Under the pieces are notes generated by a model. The model was given only the letters and a program-made list of their open reading frames with translations, did not search any database and was not told the origin of the DNA. Shown here piece after piece: positions 3,098 through 20,175 of a DNA stretch of 20,175 nt (its first letter is position 1; every line of letters starts with the position of its first letter). Position numbers and translations under genes: made by a program. This DNA comes from a virus, in the IMG/VR virus record IMGVR_UViG_3300036766_002284, positions 1-20,175 of that record; one strand, given 5' to 3'.

Positions 3098-4486
3098 CTA
3101 ACGAGCTATTCTCACTTGTTTCCGAAGAAGATTTGAAGGGCTCGTCGGCTGAATTATGACGTTCTGTAACTGCTCTTTGACCATGTTTGCAGCAAGCTGC
3201 GCAGTTACTCTGTCAGCACTTCCTGCGATGTTGACTAAGGGCGCTGTAATCGTAATACTCACGCTTGGCTTTGTAGAAGGAAGAGCCAAAGGAGTCCCGG
3301 CGCTAATAGCACTAACATTGGAAACGGCTGAAATTCCAACTTCTGCATTAAAGCCCTTGATCGAATCCAAAGCCTTGTCAGTGTTTGTCTTAACCATCCT
3401 CTGCCAATTATCCATCGTCCCCGTGCTTTCGTCAGCAGCTTTCTGAAGAGCGTGAGCAAAGCAAACACTGCTTATGAATCCCCCGATAGCGTCTCTGGCG
3501 CCGCCCAAGGCCCCAACAATCGTGTTAACAAAGCCGCCCATGATGTTGGCAACTACAAGGACAGCGTCAACTATGGGCTTAATGATGTTGTAAAAACTAT
3601 TGAATAGTTCCGTAAGGAATGAGATGATGGGACTGAAAACTCCTTTTATAAAGTTCCCGAAGGGCACGAAAACATTATTCCAGAGCCATTCAAGTGCTCC
3701 TTTTACCGCGTTAACGGCCGCTAAGAAAAAGCCGCCCAGAGTATCTCCTATTGCGTTGATCATGTCTCTGAAAGGCTTGCACGTCTCATACGCGGTGACT
3801 ATTATCGCAACTAGGCCTGCGATTGCGAGTAGTATTATAGCGATCGGATTAGCATCCATCGCAGCGTTCAGAGCCCACTGAATTCCTGTCCAGATTTCTT
3901 GAGCATGCGATACCGTTCCTATGATTGAGATGAGGCTGGGAATTATGGTTAAAGCAGTCCTTATCATCGTGTCGTTGTAGTTACGTGAAGACATGTCTGC
4001 CCTTTCCTGAGCGACTCGCAGGGCTTCTTGCGCGATAGTAAGCTTATCAAGAGCCTCTTTCGCCTGCGTGCTATTCGGACCGTACTTTGCAACTGCATCA
4101 TTGTACGCTGTCTGAGCTTTCTCGGCAGTTTCCGTGCTCCGCTGAACCATCAAGTTCGCGCGGTCAACCATTACTTGAGCATTTTGTATGCGATCAAAAC
4201 TCATGACAAGGGTCGCGCCTGCAAGCGCCAAGTTATTCATTGCCATTACTGAATTACCGAAGCTCGCTTGACTTTTTTCTTGTTGAGCTTGAAGGCTGTA
4301 TCCAGCGTTTTCCACTTGACCGTAATCACTTGCCATTTGAGATGTTGCTGCACCAGTTGTGTTGGCAAGTTCTTGGGTTTTTCCTTCAACATCGCTGAAT
4401 GTCACAGAGAGGTTACTGCCCACGCCTTCTATGACGCTTGAAGCCTCATCATAAGCCATAAGGTGAATTTCAACGTCAGTACTCAA
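3098..4486 (-). CDS. Tape measure protein, 462 aa
   Basis: The gene starts at TTG 4486-4484, with GAGGTT about nine bases upstream, and ends at TAG. The tape measure fills the tail tube and sets its length. Here the N-terminal 95 residues are polar and helical, residues about 96-175 form a coiled-coil-like region rich in Ala, Gln and Glu, two strongly hydrophobic helices lie at about 178-192 and 213-232, and a further hydrophobic, Gly-rich segment runs to about 345. Such hydrophobic helices are typical of tape measures and may insert in the host membrane. It directly follows the frameshifting tail chaperone gene, the classical order. It is short for the family; at about 1.5 angstrom per residue it would suit a tail near 70 nm. 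Confidence 0.88.
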   Translation of the reverse strand: MSTDVEIHLMAYDEASSVIEGVGSNLSVTFSDVEGKTQELANTTGAATSQMASDYGQVENAGYSLQAQQEKSQASFGNSVMAMNNLALAGATLVMSFDRIQNAQVMVDRANLMVQRSTETAEKAQTAYNDAVAKYGPNSTQAKEALDKLTIAQEALRVAQERADMSSRNYNDTMIRTALTIIPSLISIIGTVSHAQEIWTGIQWALNAAMDANPIAIILLAIAGLVAIIVTAYETCKPFRDMINAIGDTLGGFFLAAVNAVKGALEWLWNNVFVPFGNFIKGVFSPIISFLTELFNSFYNIIKPIVDAVLVVANIMGGFVNTIVGALGGARDAIGGFISSVCFAHALQKAADESTGTMDNWQRMVKTNTDKALDSIKGFNAEVGISAVSNVSAISAGTPLALPSTKPSVSITITAPLVNIAGSADRVTAQLAANMVKEQLQNVIIQPTSPSNLLRKQVRIAR

Positions 4487-4492
4487 CTTTCT

Positions 4493-4663
4493 TTAACCTC
4501 TCTGCTGTTCATAATACCATTTTGCCCATTGCTTCAGAAACTCAATTTGGAAAGGAGTCAGCTCGCCTATCATTTGAAGTGTGTAGCCGTACTCATGGGC
4601 GATGAATCCGATGGTCTGGGCTCTTCCGTCGACTCCGACCCATTCTGCGATGTCCTCTGAGGA
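4493..4663 (-). CDS. -1 frameshift extension of the tail assembly chaperone (gpT-like part)
   Basis: After a one-base backward slip on the T run at 4669-4663 the reading frame continues from TCC at 4663 for 56 codons to TAA 4495-4493. The peptide begins SSEDIAEWVGVDGRAQTIGF, continues through HEYGYTLQMIGEL and ends WYYEQQRG. It looks like true coding sequence: amphipathic helices, no stops, and an end nine bases before the tape measure start. It has no canonical start near its beginning. The full fusion would be 164 aa (108 from the first frame plus 56). This matches the lambda G/GT arrangement, where the short form coats the tape measure and the fused T part recruits tail tube subunits. Confidence 0.8.
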   Translation of the reverse strand, partial: SSEDIAEWVGVDGRAQTIGFIAHEYGYTLQMIGELTPFQIEFLKQWAKWYYEQQRG

Positions 4664-4986
4664 AAAAAACTGCCTTCTAGCTGCAGCTTCGTCAACAGCC
4701 TAACAACGACCTCGTAAGGCATCTTCTTGACATCATCAGCCGTTAATCCAGGCGACGCCGGAGCAAGCTGCTTGTACAACAGTTGAATGCTTCTGTCCTT
4801 GTTATCCTTGTATTTCTCGACGATCTCGTTAAGCTCATCATAGTTTAGCAGGACATAGCGTATCGTGCCCAAATCCTCATCATAGACTTCTCGTATCTCC
4901 TTTGCTTTCCGCACAAGCTCTTTCGGATCGAATATTCGCACGCGAGCAAGCCTTTCTTTCTCGATTTCTTCAAGGCGCTGCTCCAT
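4570..4986 (-). CDS. Tail assembly chaperone, short form (gpG-like), 138 aa
   Basis: The ATG at 4986 starts a Lys/Glu-rich helical protein (MEQRLEEIEKERLARV) with a compact domain at about residues 20-105 and a low-complexity tail after the slippery site (QNGSESTEEPRPSDSSP) before TGA at 4570. Position between the tail tube and tape measure genes, plus the frameshift signal, identify it as the tail assembly chaperone. The zero-frame tail after the slip site looks unstructured while the -1 frame encodes a structured extension. The frame is open for 14 more codons upstream, to an ACG at 5028 that sits exactly as the TTG of the 459-842 gene does behind the same AGGGGGTTTGAA motif, so a longer N-terminus (reading SESGQIDWAKVTE before MEQ) is possible. 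Confidence 0.82.
   Translation of the reverse strand: MEQRLEEIEKERLARVRIFDPKELVRKAKEIREVYDEDLGTIRYVLLNYDELNEIVEKYKDNKDRSIQLLYKQLAPASPGLTADDVKKMPYEVVVRLLTKLQLEGSFFPQRTSQNGSESTEEPRPSDSSPMSTATHFK
4663..4669 (-). other. Slippery heptamer for -1 ribosomal frameshifting
   Basis: The minus strand carries seven consecutive T here. In the zero frame it reads AGT TTT TTT CCT, so the heptamer is T TTT TTT, a correct X XXY YYZ slippery pattern. After slippage both tRNAs re-pair with TTT codons and the next codon is TCC in the -1 frame. The position is 30 codons before the zero-frame stop and the -1 frame is open until just before the tape measure gene. Confidence 0.82.
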
Positions 4987-5100: not shown

Positions 5101-5496
5101 TCACCACGCACTCACAGTTATTGACTGTGCTTCTCCTGCCAAGTCTTCGCCGACGACGCCTTTCTGGTCAACCTTCATGTTTGACGTATCAAGAATGCAC
5201 CCGTTCAGAGTTATCTTCGGATTTCCAACTGAACTTCCTGCAGGTCCCATTATGATCGTGACAGCAGTAGCTGCTAGGAAAAGGTTCTGATACGTCGCAT
5301 CTATGTAAAGTCTAGTCATTGTGAACTTGAGCGTTTGATTTCCGCTCGAGAAAACAGCAGGCTGAGCTGACAACAATGCGTACTCCTTGATTTTTTCAGC
5401 ACTCAGGTTTAACGCGAAGTTCTGTGCGTAGCCAACAGTAACGGCGTTTATTTGAATAAGCGCCCATCGGCCAATTAACGGAACATTTGCTGGCAT
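5101..5496 (-). CDS. Major tail (tube) protein, 131 aa
   Basis: ATG 5496 has GAGGTGA ten bases upstream, inside the end of the preceding gene. The protein is compact and beta-rich: an N-terminal strand region (GRWALIQINAVTVGYAQNFAL), a short helix (LSAEKIKEYALLS), then strands (TLKFTMTRLYIDA, AVTIIMGPAG, PKITLNGCILDT) and a C-terminal strand (AQSITVSAW). This fits the tail tube fold of tailed viruses: about 130-180 residues, beta sandwich with one helix, subunits polymerising around the tape measure. It lies just upstream of the chaperone and tape measure genes, the expected place. A strong ribosome binding site and a following T-rich terminator fit high expression. The call rests on context and fold pattern, not on a single motif. 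Confidence 0.8.
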   Translation of the reverse strand: MPANVPLIGRWALIQINAVTVGYAQNFALNLSAEKIKEYALLSAQPAVFSSGNQTLKFTMTRLYIDATYQNLFLAATAVTIIMGPAGSSVGNPKITLNGCILDTSNMKVDQKGVVGEDLAGEAQSITVSAW

Positions 5497-8002: not shown

Positions 8003-11000
8003 CTAGTCAATGCCGTCAACTATGATTGAGGTTGGTTGTATGCTGCAGAGGTAAAGGAATGTTTTTCCAGATGGAACCGTAACTGAGATATTTGTTGTAG
8101 CAAAGACTAACTGGCCATCAAGTGTAACGTTGCTGACAGTACCGCCGCTTATGTAGATCATCTTGTTTGTTCCAATATTTGTGTAGAGCGTATTGTTCAG
8201 GAGTGTGCCGGTGCCAAGGGCATCAACAATGTATGCTCCATAGGCAGGGAGAGCAATGTACCCGACTGGATTGAAGCCTAGTATCATCTTTGCATAGCTG
8301 TGAGGCCCTTGAATGAAAACTTTAGTGGTGTTCACGAGCCCGAAAACGCTTCCACCAATGTATTCATTGTAATCGTCGCCTGCCTCAAGTTCATGTATTG
8401 CGAGGGCCTGATTTGTACCGTTGACCGTTAAGCCTAAGATTTTGTTGTATGTTGAAGGTTGAGAAGCAATACCTTGCTCGATTAAGACAGCATCGTAGCC
8501 GCCTGAGGTTTTTCGACTATTGTCATCTGCCACGAACCCTTCAACCATACCGTTAGTGCAGCCCATTAGGATTAGGCCTTGCTGCTGGTTATAGTAAGCT
8601 GTGCTGCCAATGATCGTGTTTCTTCCGTTAGCAGGGTCGCCTCGAAGGTAGAAGCCCGCTTGGTTATTCCAGCTTGAGATGCATCCTGTAAGAACGCAAT
8701 CTTGAGCATCTCCATACACGTAGAAACCCCCAGGACTCAGCGTACTAACTACTCCGCTCTGGTTTGCTGTGCAGCCCTGTACTACACATCGTTTTCCTGA
8801 AATACTGTATTCTTCTCTTCCACTTTTCTCGCTTAGCATAGCTGTTAAAACAGCACCATAGCAGGAAGTGTATACTTTGACGCCGTGTTTTGCTGCTTGG
8901 TAGATGTACACTTGGAATACTCTAGCATAATTGCCCTGAACCGTTAGTGCGTCTCCGTCTGTCTCGCTAGGATAGTTTCCATCAATTTTGAGGTTTTGAA
9001 GGGTATCTCCTGTTCCTGAAATTGTGATGAAGTTCGCGTTCATGCTCGGGTTCTCTTTTAGAATCGTGCTGTACATGTTTTCGCCCTCGACAGTTGTGTT
9101 CGCAGTAGCAATGTTAATTGGATTCAAGTCGTATTCGCCGTTCTTGAGAAAGAGTCTTCCACCAGTCGTCATGTTGTTTAAAGCGTTGAGGAAAACAGTA
9201 GTATCATTCGCAAGGCTAAAGTCAATAGCTCCTGTAGTTCCGTTAACTTCGTACGTTGCCGTTGAATTTTTGAAGAGCATGTACTGGAAAGGAAAGCCGC
9301 TTGTAGGTCCCGCGGGGCCTGCTGGTCCTTGTGGTCCTTGCGCGCCTGTCCCGGAAGCTACGCTAACCCAAGTTCCGTTGTAGTACCAAAGCGTGTTATT
9401 CGTTGTTAGATAGAAAGGTTGGCCTACAACTGGGCTTGATGGAAATGCTGAGCCTGACCAGAAAGTCATGTTTACTGCTTGTCCCTGATTGAAATAGATG
9501 TTTCCGGAGATACTGATGCTTGTTGCGTTGAACCATGTTGCACCATACAGACCGTAGCCTGCCACGTTCCAGTCAGCTGTCAAACCCTGAGAACCGTTAG
9601 CGTAGATAAGCAATGGTACCCCGGTTAGGTTTCCCCATGGAAAGGTATTCGGGACGCCGGTTAGATTTGCATAGGGATACGTGATAGGCGGGTAGCCAAT
9701 AGGATTCCAGGAAGTATTGTTATAGACGTAGAGATAGCCTAGATCAGTTCTGTAGAAAAGCTGTTTCTGTATGGGTGAGGCTGGGAAGCTGGTTCCATTT
9801 TCAACGATTAGCTGAAGGATCTTGACACCTTGCCCAGCTGTTAACTGATTGATTGTAGTGACATAGATTGTTGTCGCATTCACGAATGTTAGGCCGTAAA
9901 TGCCGTAGCTGCCTATGTTCCAATCTGCTGTCAATGCCCGTGTGCCATTCTGGAACAGAAAGTTCGTTGCCGAGGAAATTAACAAGTATGCTGAGTCATC
10001 ATCTGCTCCGTCAGATCCACCGCCTGAGCATGCTACCCAAGCTGTGCTGTTGTAGTAATAGAGCGTAAAGAGGTCTTGACGATAGAATAAGCGGCCAGCA
10101 ACAGGCGAAGCTGGAAAACTCGTTCCATTTTCTACGACAAGCTTGAGAATCTGTACAGTTGTGCCGTCTATGCTATCAATCGTTTTGACGTAGACTGTTG
10201 TTACATTGATGTAGGTCAGACCGTATATACCGTAGCTTCCACCCACGTTCCAGTTACCTGTGAGCCCTTGAGAACCGTTTGCGAAGAGCAGAATAGGTAC
10301 ACCAGTCAAGTTCGCATAAGGAAAAGTATTTGGAATGCCCGTAAGATTTCCATACGGATACGTCGCGGGTGGGTAGCCTATCGGAATCCATGTGTTGTTG
10401 TAGACGAAGAGAAAGCCGAGGTCTGTTCTGAAGTACTCTTGATTCGTAACAGGAGAATTCGGAAAGCTTGTACCGCTCTCGACAACAAAGTGTAGAATCT
10501 TTACGCCGCTGCCCGAGATAAGCTGGTCAACAGTTGAAACGTACAGCGATGTCGCATTAACAGAAGAGAGCCCATAGATCCCGAAGCTACTAGCATTCCA
10601 GTCTGCTGTCAACGGCCGTGTGCCATTTTCGAAGAGATACTGGCTTAGATCAGGTTTGTTGATAAGCTGATTGTAGTCATACGTTCCACCGCCACCGCCT
10701 GAGACCCACGTCGTGCTATTGTAATAGAAAAGCACGTTTGAAGCGTTGTTGTAGAAGAGGTAGCCGGGCGCAGGATTCGCAGGCCAGCTGGATCCACTTT
10801 CGACGACGAGTTTCAGGATTTGCAGGTTGCCGGAGAGGCTTGTTATTGTGTTGACGTAGATTGTCGTCAGATTCGCAGACTGCGTGAGAAGGGTCCCGCT
10901 TGCATAGTTGAAGACACTATAAGGAAGTCCGTTGCTGTAGTACTGGAAGATTCCACTGTTGAAGTCGTCTACGATGCAGTTGGCTCCTGAAGCAACAGTG

Positions 11001-11452
11001 TAGTTGATTCCTGTGGCTCCCTTGTCAATAACGAATCTTACGTTATTTGGAACGATAACAGCTACGGAGTATGGATCTGCGAAGACATACACGCTTCCAC
11101 CGAGTACTGAAGCATTGTTCAAACCGTCCATGAATACTTGACTCTGATTCGTAAGATACTCCACAAGCTTGCCATTCGTGCCGTTAAGCAGTGTTGCGTA
11201 CGCGTCCACTGTGCAGATGATGTAGGTGTTGCTTTTCAAGAAAGCGCTGAGACTGCTGTTTACTGGAATGTCAAGACGCTTCTCAATCGTTTCAACTCTA
11301 GCCTGCACATCAACATTAACAGAAACGTTGACTCCATGACTGGCAGCCCAGCCGGCAGCCACAAGAATCACTGCAATCATGATTGTTGCTTGCCACCACT
11401 TCAGATTCGACAGAAAACCAAGCTTTACCGTAGGTTGATTTATTCCATTCAT
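8003..11452 (-). CDS. Membrane-anchored, repeat-rich beta-helix fibre/spike protein, about 1149 aa
   Basis: ATG 11452 is chosen because GGTGAG lies seven bases upstream; an in-frame ATG at 11467 has no such site. From the N-terminus: a basic segment, one membrane span (WWQATIMIAVILVAAGWAA), a short coiled coil (VQARVETIEKRL), then four to five copies of a unit of about 110-115 residues (key parts LTADWN, YGIYGL, NATTIYV, GTSFPASP, YNNT-W), a collagen-like GPQGPAGPAGP stretch near residue 705-720, and a region from about 740 with the look of a right-handed beta helix (LQNLKIDGN, VVQGCTANQSG, CVLTGCISSWNNQAGFYLRG). The many N-x-S/T sequons suit archaeal surface glycoproteins. It may be a receptor-binding fibre or a protein placed on the host surface; a membrane anchor is odd for a tail fibre. 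Confidence 0.75.
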   Translation of the reverse strand: MNGINQPTVKLGFLSNLKWWQATIMIAVILVAAGWAASHGVNVSVNVDVQARVETIEKRLDIPVNSSLSAFLKSNTYIICTVDAYATLLNGTNGKLVEYLTNQSQVFMDGLNNASVLGGSVYVFADPYSVAVIVPNNVRFVIDKGATGINYTVASGANCIVDDFNSGIFQYYSNGLPYSVFNYASGTLLTQSANLTTIYVNTITSLSGNLQILKLVVESGSSWPANPAPGYLFYNNASNVLFYYNSTTWVSGGGGGTYDYNQLINKPDLSQYLFENGTRPLTADWNASSFGIYGLSSVNATSLYVSTVDQLISGSGVKILHFVVESGTSFPNSPVTNQEYFRTDLGFLFVYNNTWIPIGYPPATYPYGNLTGIPNTFPYANLTGVPILLFANGSQGLTGNWNVGGSYGIYGLTYINVTTVYVKTIDSIDGTTVQILKLVVENGTSFPASPVAGRLFYRQDLFTLYYYNSTAWVACSGGGSDGADDDSAYLLISSATNFLFQNGTRALTADWNIGSYGIYGLTFVNATTIYVTTINQLTAGQGVKILQLIVENGTSFPASPIQKQLFYRTDLGYLYVYNNTSWNPIGYPPITYPYANLTGVPNTFPWGNLTGVPLLIYANGSQGLTADWNVAGYGLYGATWFNATSISISGNIYFNQGQAVNMTFWSGSAFPSSPVVGQPFYLTTNNTLWYYNGTWVSVASGTGAQGPQGPAGPAGPTSGFPFQYMLFKNSTATYEVNGTTGAIDFSLANDTTVFLNALNNMTTGGRLFLKNGEYDLNPINIATANTTVEGENMYSTILKENPSMNANFITISGTGDTLQNLKIDGNYPSETDGDALTVQGNYARVFQVYIYQAAKHGVKVYTSCYGAVLTAMLSEKSGREEYSISGKRCVVQGCTANQSGVVSTLSPGGFYVYGDAQDCVLTGCISSWNNQAGFYLRGDPANGRNTIIGSTAYYNQQQGLILMGCTNGMVEGFVADDNSRKTSGGYDAVLIEQGIASQPSTYNKILGLTVNGTNQALAIHELEAGDDYNEYIGGSVFGLVNTTKVFIQGPHSYAKMILGFNPVGYIALPAYGAYIVDALGTGTLLNNTLYTNIGTNKMIYISGGTVSNVTLDGQLVFATTNISVTVPSGKTFLYLCSIQPTSIIVDGID
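9583..10873 (-). repeat. Tandem degenerate repeats of about 330-350 bp in the fibre gene
   Basis: Repeat units in the encoded protein begin (LTADWN or LTGNWN) at about 10612, 10264, 9934 and 9583, with a partial unit from about 10873 that starts at LTTIYVNTI. Shared pieces include 'YGIYGL', 'VENGTSFPASP', 'FYRTDLG-LYVYNNT' and the paired 'YANLTGVPNTFP'. The copies have diverged in DNA but stay in frame. Confidence 0.8.
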
Positions 11453-11480
11453 TGAATCTCTCACCATTTATCTTGCGTTT

Positions 11481-13421: not shown

Positions 13422-14213
13422 AGGCTTCACCTCTCTTGTGTTTGATTGTTGTTTTTCAGGTTCTTGCGACTCCCGTCTAGAACCCACATCTTTGTCATTT
13501 TGACATGACTGTGAATTTCTGACTGGAAAATTCTTCCAATCATCATCATTCCAGAAAATACTGTCTATTGGCCGTGAGAAATCGCCTTTCGTTGCTGCTT
13601 CTCTTATCGCTTGTGCGCGTTCCAATATTTTCTGACTGGGATACGTTGTAGCTTCGAACTCTATGCCGACGTTTTTTTGGCTCTCATTCATTGCCGCCGC
13701 GAAGCCCACAGGCTTAAACTCGGTTTTCTCGTAAGCAGGAGAAGCAACAATGCTGAGCTCGCGGACCCTTGGCTTGTGAACGATTTCCCAAGCGTCTGGG
13801 CACAGATGAAAGAGTATTCCTTCATTCCTGGTTGGCTTGTGACACTTGCTACACTCAACATCGTCACTGTCAACCTGGACACTCACATATTCTATGTAAC
13901 CGCGGAGTATCTTGTCAATAAGTTTCTCTTCTCCGCCGACCTCAGCTCTGAAATAGACTTCTTGCCCTTGACGTCTTGCCTCTGGCACTTTTCCAACAAC
14001 CATGAAAACGCTTTCAGCATGATCCGCACGCAACTGAGCTCCTTTGAGCGTTTCAGTGAAGAAGTCAAGGTCCTCCTCTGGAACCTGCCACTTGTTCTTA
14101 TTAACACTCGTATCGATTGCGAGCCCTTCAATGTTAATCAGCTTCTCTCTTGACGCGAACTGTGCGTCAATGCCTGCCTGTGCCTTGAACGGAACAAAGT
14201 ATTTGAGCTGCAT
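12939..14213 (-). CDS. Prohead maturation protease with C-terminal scaffold region, about 424 aa
   Basis: ATG 14213 is preferred: GGTGAC lies upstream, while the in-frame TTG at 14217-14219 overlaps the previous stop region. The N-terminal domain (to about residue 175) is of the HK97 prohead protease (S78) type, with a candidate catalytic His in LRADHAES (about 65) and Ser in RELSIVASPAY (about 153-157). Inserted between them is a Cys/His cluster, C-x2-C and then H-x-C about a dozen residues later (121-138), which looks like a zinc knuckle. Residues about 265-400 are Gln/Glu/Lys/Ala-rich and coiled-coil-like, as in scaffolding proteins, ending in a basic tail (WFNDLIKASRKLNAAGFKG). The scaffold part also seems to have its own start. 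The protease cleaves scaffold and itself during capsid maturation. Confidence 0.87.
   Translation of the reverse strand: MQLKYFVPFKAQAGIDAQFASREKLINIEGLAIDTSVNKNKWQVPEEDLDFFTETLKGAQLRADHAESVFMVVGKVPEARRQGQEVYFRAEVGGEEKLIDKILRGYIEYVSVQVDSDDVECSKCHKPTRNEGILFHLCPDAWEIVHKPRVRELSIVASPAYEKTEFKPVGFAAAMNESQKNVGIEFEATTYPSQKILERAQAIREAATKGDFSRPIDSIFWNDDDWKNFPVRNSQSCQNDKDVGSRRESQEPEKQQSNTREVKPMSEQQNAQQKASPHQAQGVVNVAPGEGAPKELTYQQYIDQLTQLKQQIMQKPGASDSELNDLQSKLADLEGELAKRARKAELGKKISELSKQLGEGTAEEQGEEGDEASGASAGAAQRASGKGIVGAIEGSSDPDGLGDYKWFNDLIKASRKLNAAGFKG
13427..13433 (-). promoter_or_regulatory. Internal ribosome binding site GAGGTGA in the protease gene
   Basis: The site reads GAGGTGA on the minus strand and is followed after AGCCT by ATG. 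It is as strong as the best site of any gene in the window (the tail tube gene has the same sequence) and lies in a region where the protein is an unstructured linker. Confidence 0.65.
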
Positions 14214-19137: not shown

Positions 19138-20175
19138 TTGGGAATCAGGCAATTGTTCCGATTCTATGAAATGGGAATAAGATTCAGAGCAGGAAGCAAA
19201 GTAGCCAAGACAGTCAAGACGACAAAGAACTTTCCGTTGACCATCGAGCACGTCAGAACCATATTTAGGGTCGCAGACCTTCGAGAAAGAATCATTCTCA
19301 GCATGGCGACTGACCTAGGCCTCAGAGTTGGCGACTTCATAAACATCAAGAAAACTGACATACCCCCTTTAGACCAAGAACCGCCTATTTCATTTGACCT
19401 GATGACCAGCAAAGAAGAAGTTGTAGCTCATGGTTTCTTGAGCCATGAAACAGTTGACCTTCTCAAAGCCTATTTGCCCACCCTTGAGAAGAAAAATGGC
19501 AACCCCTACCTTTTCCCTTCAAACGGAACAGCCCATATATCAGACGAATGGTTAAACAAACTACTACAACGACTAGCAAAAAACGCTAAAATCAACCTCA
19601 ATGGAAAAAGCCTAACGTTTCACTGTTTCAGGAAAATGTTCCTATCCGCAGCAATAGATTCAGGCATAGGTCTGACCGCAGGAAAGAAACTGTGTGGGAA
19701 AGCCATTGCAGAAAGTGATGACACCTACCTCACCACCGTAAACCTACGAGACAAATTCCTTCAGCTAAAGCGGTTTCTAGTACTAGTAGAACAACCTCGG
19801 ACAGAAATTGAGAAGATTGACTCACTGAAGAAAGCCATAGTCGGGCTTCAGGAACAGCTATCCAACCAGCAACTAGTCACTCAAACAGTTTCTGATGAGT
19901 ACACCAAAACAAAACAGAAACTTCAACCCCTTCTAGAATTCGTAGAAGGCTTCAAAGATGAGGAAACACTTCAACTGTTCTTAGACCTACTGAGAAAGGC
20001 GACGAGCGTCTCACTGCCTCCAGATGAAGGTGTGTTCGTCAAGGTTGACTTTCCCGAGGAACTATCAGAAAGAATCGATAAACTCGCAAAGAAGAAAGGC
20101 ATAACAAGACAACAGGCAATAACCTACCTAACTGACGAAGGAATCAAGGCACTGGAGAACCTAACCTCCAGCTAG
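19138..20175 (+). CDS. Tyrosine recombinase (integrase) with C-terminal coiled coil and RHH-like domain
   Basis: The protein joins virus and host DNA at att sites. The coordinates use TTG 19138 (345 aa), but the frame is open from 18991 and encodes more of the core-binding domain upstream (RAARFEKEIEKFHSYLLEQD). Catalytic residues, numbered from 19138, are R63 (GLRVGDF), K92 (TSKEEV), H162-x2-R165 (FHCFRK) and Y197 (DDTYLT); the usual 'LGH' His is replaced by Lys in KLCGKA (188). Residues about 222-290 look like a coiled coil (KKAIVGLQEQLSNQQL). Residues about 299-341 (VFVKVDFPEELSERIDKLAK, then GITRQQAITYL) fit a ribbon-helix-helix fold. The gene is divergent from all others and ends at the window edge, so an att site would lie outside or nearby. 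Confidence 0.9.
   Translation: MGIRQLFRFYEMGIRFRAGSKVAKTVKTTKNFPLTIEHVRTIFRVADLRERIILSMATDLGLRVGDFINIKKTDIPPLDQEPPISFDLMTSKEEVVAHGFLSHETVDLLKAYLPTLEKKNGNPYLFPSNGTAHISDEWLNKLLQRLAKNAKINLNGKSLTFHCFRKMFLSAAIDSGIGLTAGKKLCGKAIAESDDTYLTTVNLRDKFLQLKRFLVLVEQPRTEIEKIDSLKKAIVGLQEQLSNQQLVTQTVSDEYTKTKQKLQPLLEFVEGFKDEETLQLFLDLLRKATSVSLPPDEGVFVKVDFPEELSERIDKLAKKKGITRQQAITYLTDEGIKALENLTSS

Follow-up and report, generated by a model that had tools for sequence, protein, structure and literature searches.

We describe a viral locus that very probably encodes two tail assembly chaperone products, the longer of which would be made by programmed −1 ribosomal frameshifting, in an arrangement like that of the lambda G/GT genes. 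The locus was found in a stretch of viral DNA of 20,175 nucleotides (hereafter, "the window"), and its interpretation is based on what can be read by sequence: the slip site and its frame, the conservation of both, frame-specific selection, synteny, and predicted folds. An initial annotation of the window had proposed the lambda-like arrangement from the letters of this one DNA; conservation across relatives, selection that differs between frames, gene order, a predicted fold and evidence on the host now lend it support. Here, we describe the locus and its relatives, the explanations that might account for the frame break, and what the gene family adds to known cases of recoding in archaea and their viruses.

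The slip site and the −1 frame

The zero-frame ORF, referred to here as "G", encodes the short product of the putative chaperone gene. It lies on the minus strand at positions 4570–4986, with a stop codon at 4572–4570, and encodes 138 aa when counted from the ATG at 4986. Within G, the minus-strand codons AGT (4671–4669) TTT TTT CCT place a T_TTT_TTT heptamer at 4669–4663 in the phase for −1 slippage, just as the initial annotation had read it. The corresponding plus-strand A7, at exactly 4663–4669, is the sole A7 in the window; there is also one plus-strand T7, at 13672. The −1 frame entered at the heptamer is open for 56 codons, which confirms the length first reported. This ORF, "T", occupies 4493–4669 on the minus strand and would form the C-terminal domain of a "GT" fusion; it reads FF, then SSEDIAEWVGVD...QQRG, and ends with a stop codon at 4495–4493. 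The predicted junction peptide across the slip is EGSFFSSEDIAEW....

Counted from the ATG at 4986, the predicted fusion comprises 108 + 56 codons, i.e., the 164 aa originally given for it. In close homologues, however, G starts with an ATG 14 codons further upstream, at a position where the window has an ACG codon (5028–5026, minus strand) standing behind a GGGGG stretch. Given the position of the homologues' ATG, the natural G and GT proteins may have lengths of 152 and 178 aa, respectively. Candidate explanations for the ACG are a non-AUG start, a mutation, or a sequence error. At the other end of the fusion, the −1 stop had been placed nine bases before the tape measure start; this distance is correct when the three bases of the stop codon are included, and 6 bases lie between the stop and the TTG start at 4486.

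Neighboring genes and predicted structures

The ORF directly downstream, at 3098–4486 on the minus strand, has a TTG start and matches PHROG tail length tape measure families with E-values down to 1e-12. Directly upstream, the minus-strand ORF at 5101–5496 probably encodes a tail tube protein, based on a weak match to the Pfam family Phage_tube_2 (E 3.8e-4, below the curated cut-off). This order of genes, i.e., tail tube, G/T, tape measure, is kept in 12 distinct homologous contigs. In one subgroup of relatives, represented by L016 and L207, T runs into the tape measure gene, its last codons being shared with that gene's start (ATGAGCAGCGAAGTTGAG); this suggests that the two are translationally coupled there.

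Profile libraries (PHROGs and Pfam) recognized neither G nor T, a tblastn search with the G–T fusion against isolated phages gave zero matches, and the chaperone showed no detected sequence similarity to isolated phages or to chaperone families described so far. An AlphaFold2 model of G, built with 30 sequences, has a mean pLDDT of 79–94 over residues 41–120, and residues 125–152, which correspond to the zero-frame tail past the slip, have pLDDT <50 and are predicted to be disordered. When the G model was compared with 867 chains, the HK97 tail assembly chaperone 2ob9 ranked first, with 91 residues aligned at a Z score of 6.6, a middling score that lies below 8; Bacillus YqbN (3klu) ranked second of the 867 chains, with a Z score of 6.2. 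The top match thus agrees with the function predicted from gene position. The −1 peptide had been described as structured and helical, and an AlphaFold2 model of the T domain, built with 29 sequences, bears this out, being all helical with a mean pLDDT of 91.6. Foldseek searches gave no significant match for G, and nothing significant for the T domain against the PDB.

Conservation of the heptamer across relatives

Relatives were collected by scanning viral contigs, with the chaperone and a capsid protein from this virus group as queries, and by searching a T-domain profile against 257 genomes of the class and 398 of the phylum of a Bathyarchaeota MAG. These searches yielded 45 loci with a T domain; together with the window there are 46 sequences, 45 of them distinct (i.e., 44 further distinct sequences), and 29 of the 45 are <85% identical at the nucleotide level. 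An exact scan of viral contigs with the 14-mer GGCAGTTTTTTTCC was also made, and two contigs among the matches listed had already been recovered with the protein query.

Every one of the distinct sequences has T in the −1 frame relative to a G-like ORF, and in all 45 an in-phase X_XXY_YYZ heptamer is found at the junction. Elsewhere in the same genes, such heptamers occur in phase at 0.34% of codon positions (15/4350). The heptamers themselves are of eight kinds: T_TTT_TTT (15 sequences), T_TTT_TTA (13), T_TTT_TTG (5), T_TTT_TTC (4), G_GGT_TTT (4), A_AAT_TTC (2), A_AAT_TTT (1) and C_CCT_TTC (1), with the U-type one counted at loci that have two overlapping heptamers (e.g., G_GGT_TTT and T_TTT_TTA). 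A T7 run is present in the window and in 14 relatives, and the other junctions have T6 or T3–T4 (G_GGT_TTT_A, A_AAT_TTT_C, A_AAT_TTC, C_CCT_TTC). At the slip, each of the 45 sequences has UUN as its A-site codon. The refuting case originally named, homologues lacking both a T run and the downstream −1 ORF, was looked for, and no homologue of that kind was found. The conserved element is the X_XXY_YYZ heptamer rather than the T run as such. Because the heptamer varies in sequence while its property stays constant, the pattern has the signature expected of selection for tandem tRNA slippage, as opposed to selection for a homopolymer.

None of the 45 distinct sequences encodes G and T fused in a single frame. 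Four loci (L207, L208, L212 and L214) had appeared as candidates for an in-frame fusion, being covered by long single tblastn segments, and were rejected once their frames were read.

Selection on the two frames

Nonsynonymous codon differences were counted among 15 close sequences and compared with the number expected when the same substitutions are placed at random. In the part of G that precedes the slip, 2595 such differences were counted in the zero frame against 5054 expected. In the region of overlap, it is the −1 frame that is depleted, with 837 differences against 1270 expected (sd 15); the zero frame there is nearly neutral, with 1209 against 1256. Past the zero-frame stop, the −1 frame has 737 differences against 1364 expected. 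Since the sequence pairs are not independent of one another, the comparison with shuffles is to be read as a measure of effect size and not as a probability. Judged by these substitution patterns, the protected frame nevertheless plainly switches from zero to −1 at the slip.

Possible mechanisms and alternative explanations

In the scheme that we infer, both for the occurrence and efficiency of frameshifting and for the assembly roles of G and GT, the majority of ribosomes would read G through to its stop at 4572–4570, and the chaperone so made would end in a disordered tail. In the smaller share of ribosomes, the P- and A-site tRNAs on T_TTT_TTT would slip back by one base together and continue in the −1 frame, and the product would be a G–T fusion that carries the conserved helical T domain and ends just before the tape measure start. 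By analogy with lambda, the tape measure protein would be coated by many copies of G and a few of GT, and recruitment of the tail tube protein would fall to the T domain.

Two kinds of stimulator were considered, and neither was found. Nested RNA structures downstream of the slip scored no better than those of shuffled sequences (z −1.45 to +1.36, eight sequences), giving no sign of a stem-loop there. GAAGG or GAGGG is found near the slip in close relatives, but Shine-Dalgarno-like matches upstream of it are at background level over the family as a whole. One tentative idea, to which we give a low probability, is that the −1 signals used by viruses of Thermoproteota form a U-only class, with UUN (Phe or Leu) in the A site and no RNA structure, and that they rely on how archaeal tRNA-Phe and tRNA-Leu behave; the frameshift rate, and so the G:GT ratio, could then be set by how far position 37 of host tRNA-Phe carries wyosine-type modification. 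PF08608, a family of wyosine enzymes acting on tRNA-Phe, was found in all seven of the genomes tested, which makes an influence of tRNA-Phe modification possible but speculative. Such an influence would leave the UUA and UUG sites uncovered.

The same fusion protein could also be made if RNA polymerase, and not the ribosome, slipped on the T7 run, adding a U (T7 to T8) to an mRNA that is then read normally. The T7 run of the window and 14 relatives is the kind of homopolymer on which this could happen, and at the T7 sites taken alone transcriptional slippage is possible. Yet the junctions with T6 or T3–T4 all keep a heptamer in phase for tandem slippage, a rule needed for tRNA re-pairing and not for slippage of polymerase; since even the T3–T4 junctions obey it, transcriptional slippage fails as a common explanation, and we consider it improbable for the family. 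Still less probable is that T is made as a protein of its own by reinitiation or from an internal start. The position of the −1 ORF, immediately before the tape measure gene, would suit a separate gene, but in the window its frame lacks ATG, GTG and TTG from the upstream stop as far as codon 30 of 56. Nearly all of the 31 sequences scanned lack a start codon in the T frame before its conserved part, which begins at the slip, and several relatives have no start codon anywhere in T. A frame break could, lastly, be created by an assembly or sequencing error, or by decay of a gene whose true form is in one frame, and it counts toward this reading that homopolymers are error-prone and that the window also lacks the ATG start of its homologues. 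The same break recurs, however, in 45 distinct sequences from many samples, at heptamers that differ from one another and in some cases contain no long run, with zero in-frame fusions among them; we regard error or decay as highly unlikely. Programmed −1 frameshifting by the ribosome is, by a wide margin, the reading that we prefer.

Host and virus group

The window had been taken to come from an archaeal virus, and two lines of evidence uphold this. Relatives of the capsid protein (MCP; 67% identical), the portal (64%) and the protease (45%) are encoded on one contig, 309 kb long, from a Candidatus Bathyarchaeota metagenome-assembled genome (MAG). In addition, when a T-domain profile was searched in 257 genomes of this MAG's class and 398 of its phylum, the T domain was found in 6 of the 257 and, in the phylum sample, in three further genomes outside those 257. 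The virus-gene relatives and the T domain together indicate that the host, a sediment archaeon, is very probably a member of the Bathyarchaeia or a near relative, to be read with the caution that binning of MAGs calls for. With the G–T fusion as query, the genome contigs gave no match; the capsid protein as query succeeded.

One Bathyarchaeota MAG, L137, contains a provirus with a homologous head module and a different tail module, and the T domain is absent from this genome. This points to exchange of head and tail modules within the virus group. The virus of the window is probably temperate: a tyrosine integrase, whose C-terminus weakly matches a ribbon-helix-helix motif, is encoded at 19138–20175 and runs off the end of the window. 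Between the capsid and neck genes, at 8003–11467, the window encodes a large protein of 1154 aa that contains repeated segments and a stretch, GPQGPAGPAGP, resembling collagen; no homologue was found in the 15 loci compared, and it looks like an inserted fiber or adhesin.

In two subgroups of relatives, the major capsid genes are exactly broken by short insertions. A 31-base insertion follows IIEL at the same capsid-gene position in L009 (about 181–213) and L012, and a 37–38-base insertion follows SSYAP in L010 and L011 (in L011, about 4653–4690). The capsid frame is intact on both sides, each insertion can form a hairpin, and no Rfam match was found for them. They look like candidate bulge-helix-bulge mini-introns, of the archaeal tRNA-endonuclease type, in viral mRNA.

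Relation to known systems

Frameshifted tail chaperones are conserved in tailed phages (Xu, Hendrix and Duda 2004, as cited in PMC5009743). For haloarchaeal viruses, a −1 frameshift was proposed earlier in HVTV-1 and in HCTV-1, -2 and -5 (PMC5009743, PMC8211752), and in Hardycor1 (PMC7911831), and a +1 frameshift was proposed in HSTV-2 (PMC5009743, PMC7911831, PMC8211752). A 2021 review gives fucA1 as the single reported archaeal programmed −1 frameshift, haloarchaeal virus predictions aside; in Saccharolobus solfataricus, the fucA1 frameshift occurs at A_AAA_AAT. The view that such recoding has been little described in archaeal viruses is only partly borne out, since cases in haloarchaeal viruses had already been proposed. 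In a 2024 paper on viruses of Bathyarchaeia (PMC10848311), the terms frameshift, tape measure and chaperone are all absent from the main text.

The locus described here has the gene arrangement of lambda G/GT. It differs in its slip sites, where the A-site codon is always UUN, whereas the lambda slip site is G_GGA_AAG. HVTV-1, HCTV-1, -2 and -5 and Hardycor1 share with it the same gene pair and a predicted −1 frameshift, and are likewise archaeal viruses; their hosts, however, belong to another phylum, and no chaperone similarity was found in phage records. HK97 2ob9 and Bacillus YqbN 3klu are the two best matches to the predicted core of G, at 11–14% identity and middling strength. The fucA1 case shares with the predicted one here a −1 shift in an archaeal setting, but fucA1 is a cellular enzyme gene with no clear need for recoding, and its site is lost in more distant homologues. 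What is new is the lineage of the host, how deeply the arrangement is conserved, and an A-site codon that is always UUN at the slip. A known trick thus appears to extend to viruses of another archaeal phylum, with comparative support that is unusually good.

Ordinary gene calls for these viruses miss the T domain and end G wrongly. Beyond annotation, eight heptamers occur naturally within a single family of orthologous genes from viruses of uncultured archaea, and such a series makes it possible to test directly if archaeal ribosomes follow the tandem-slippage rule and if a stimulator is required.
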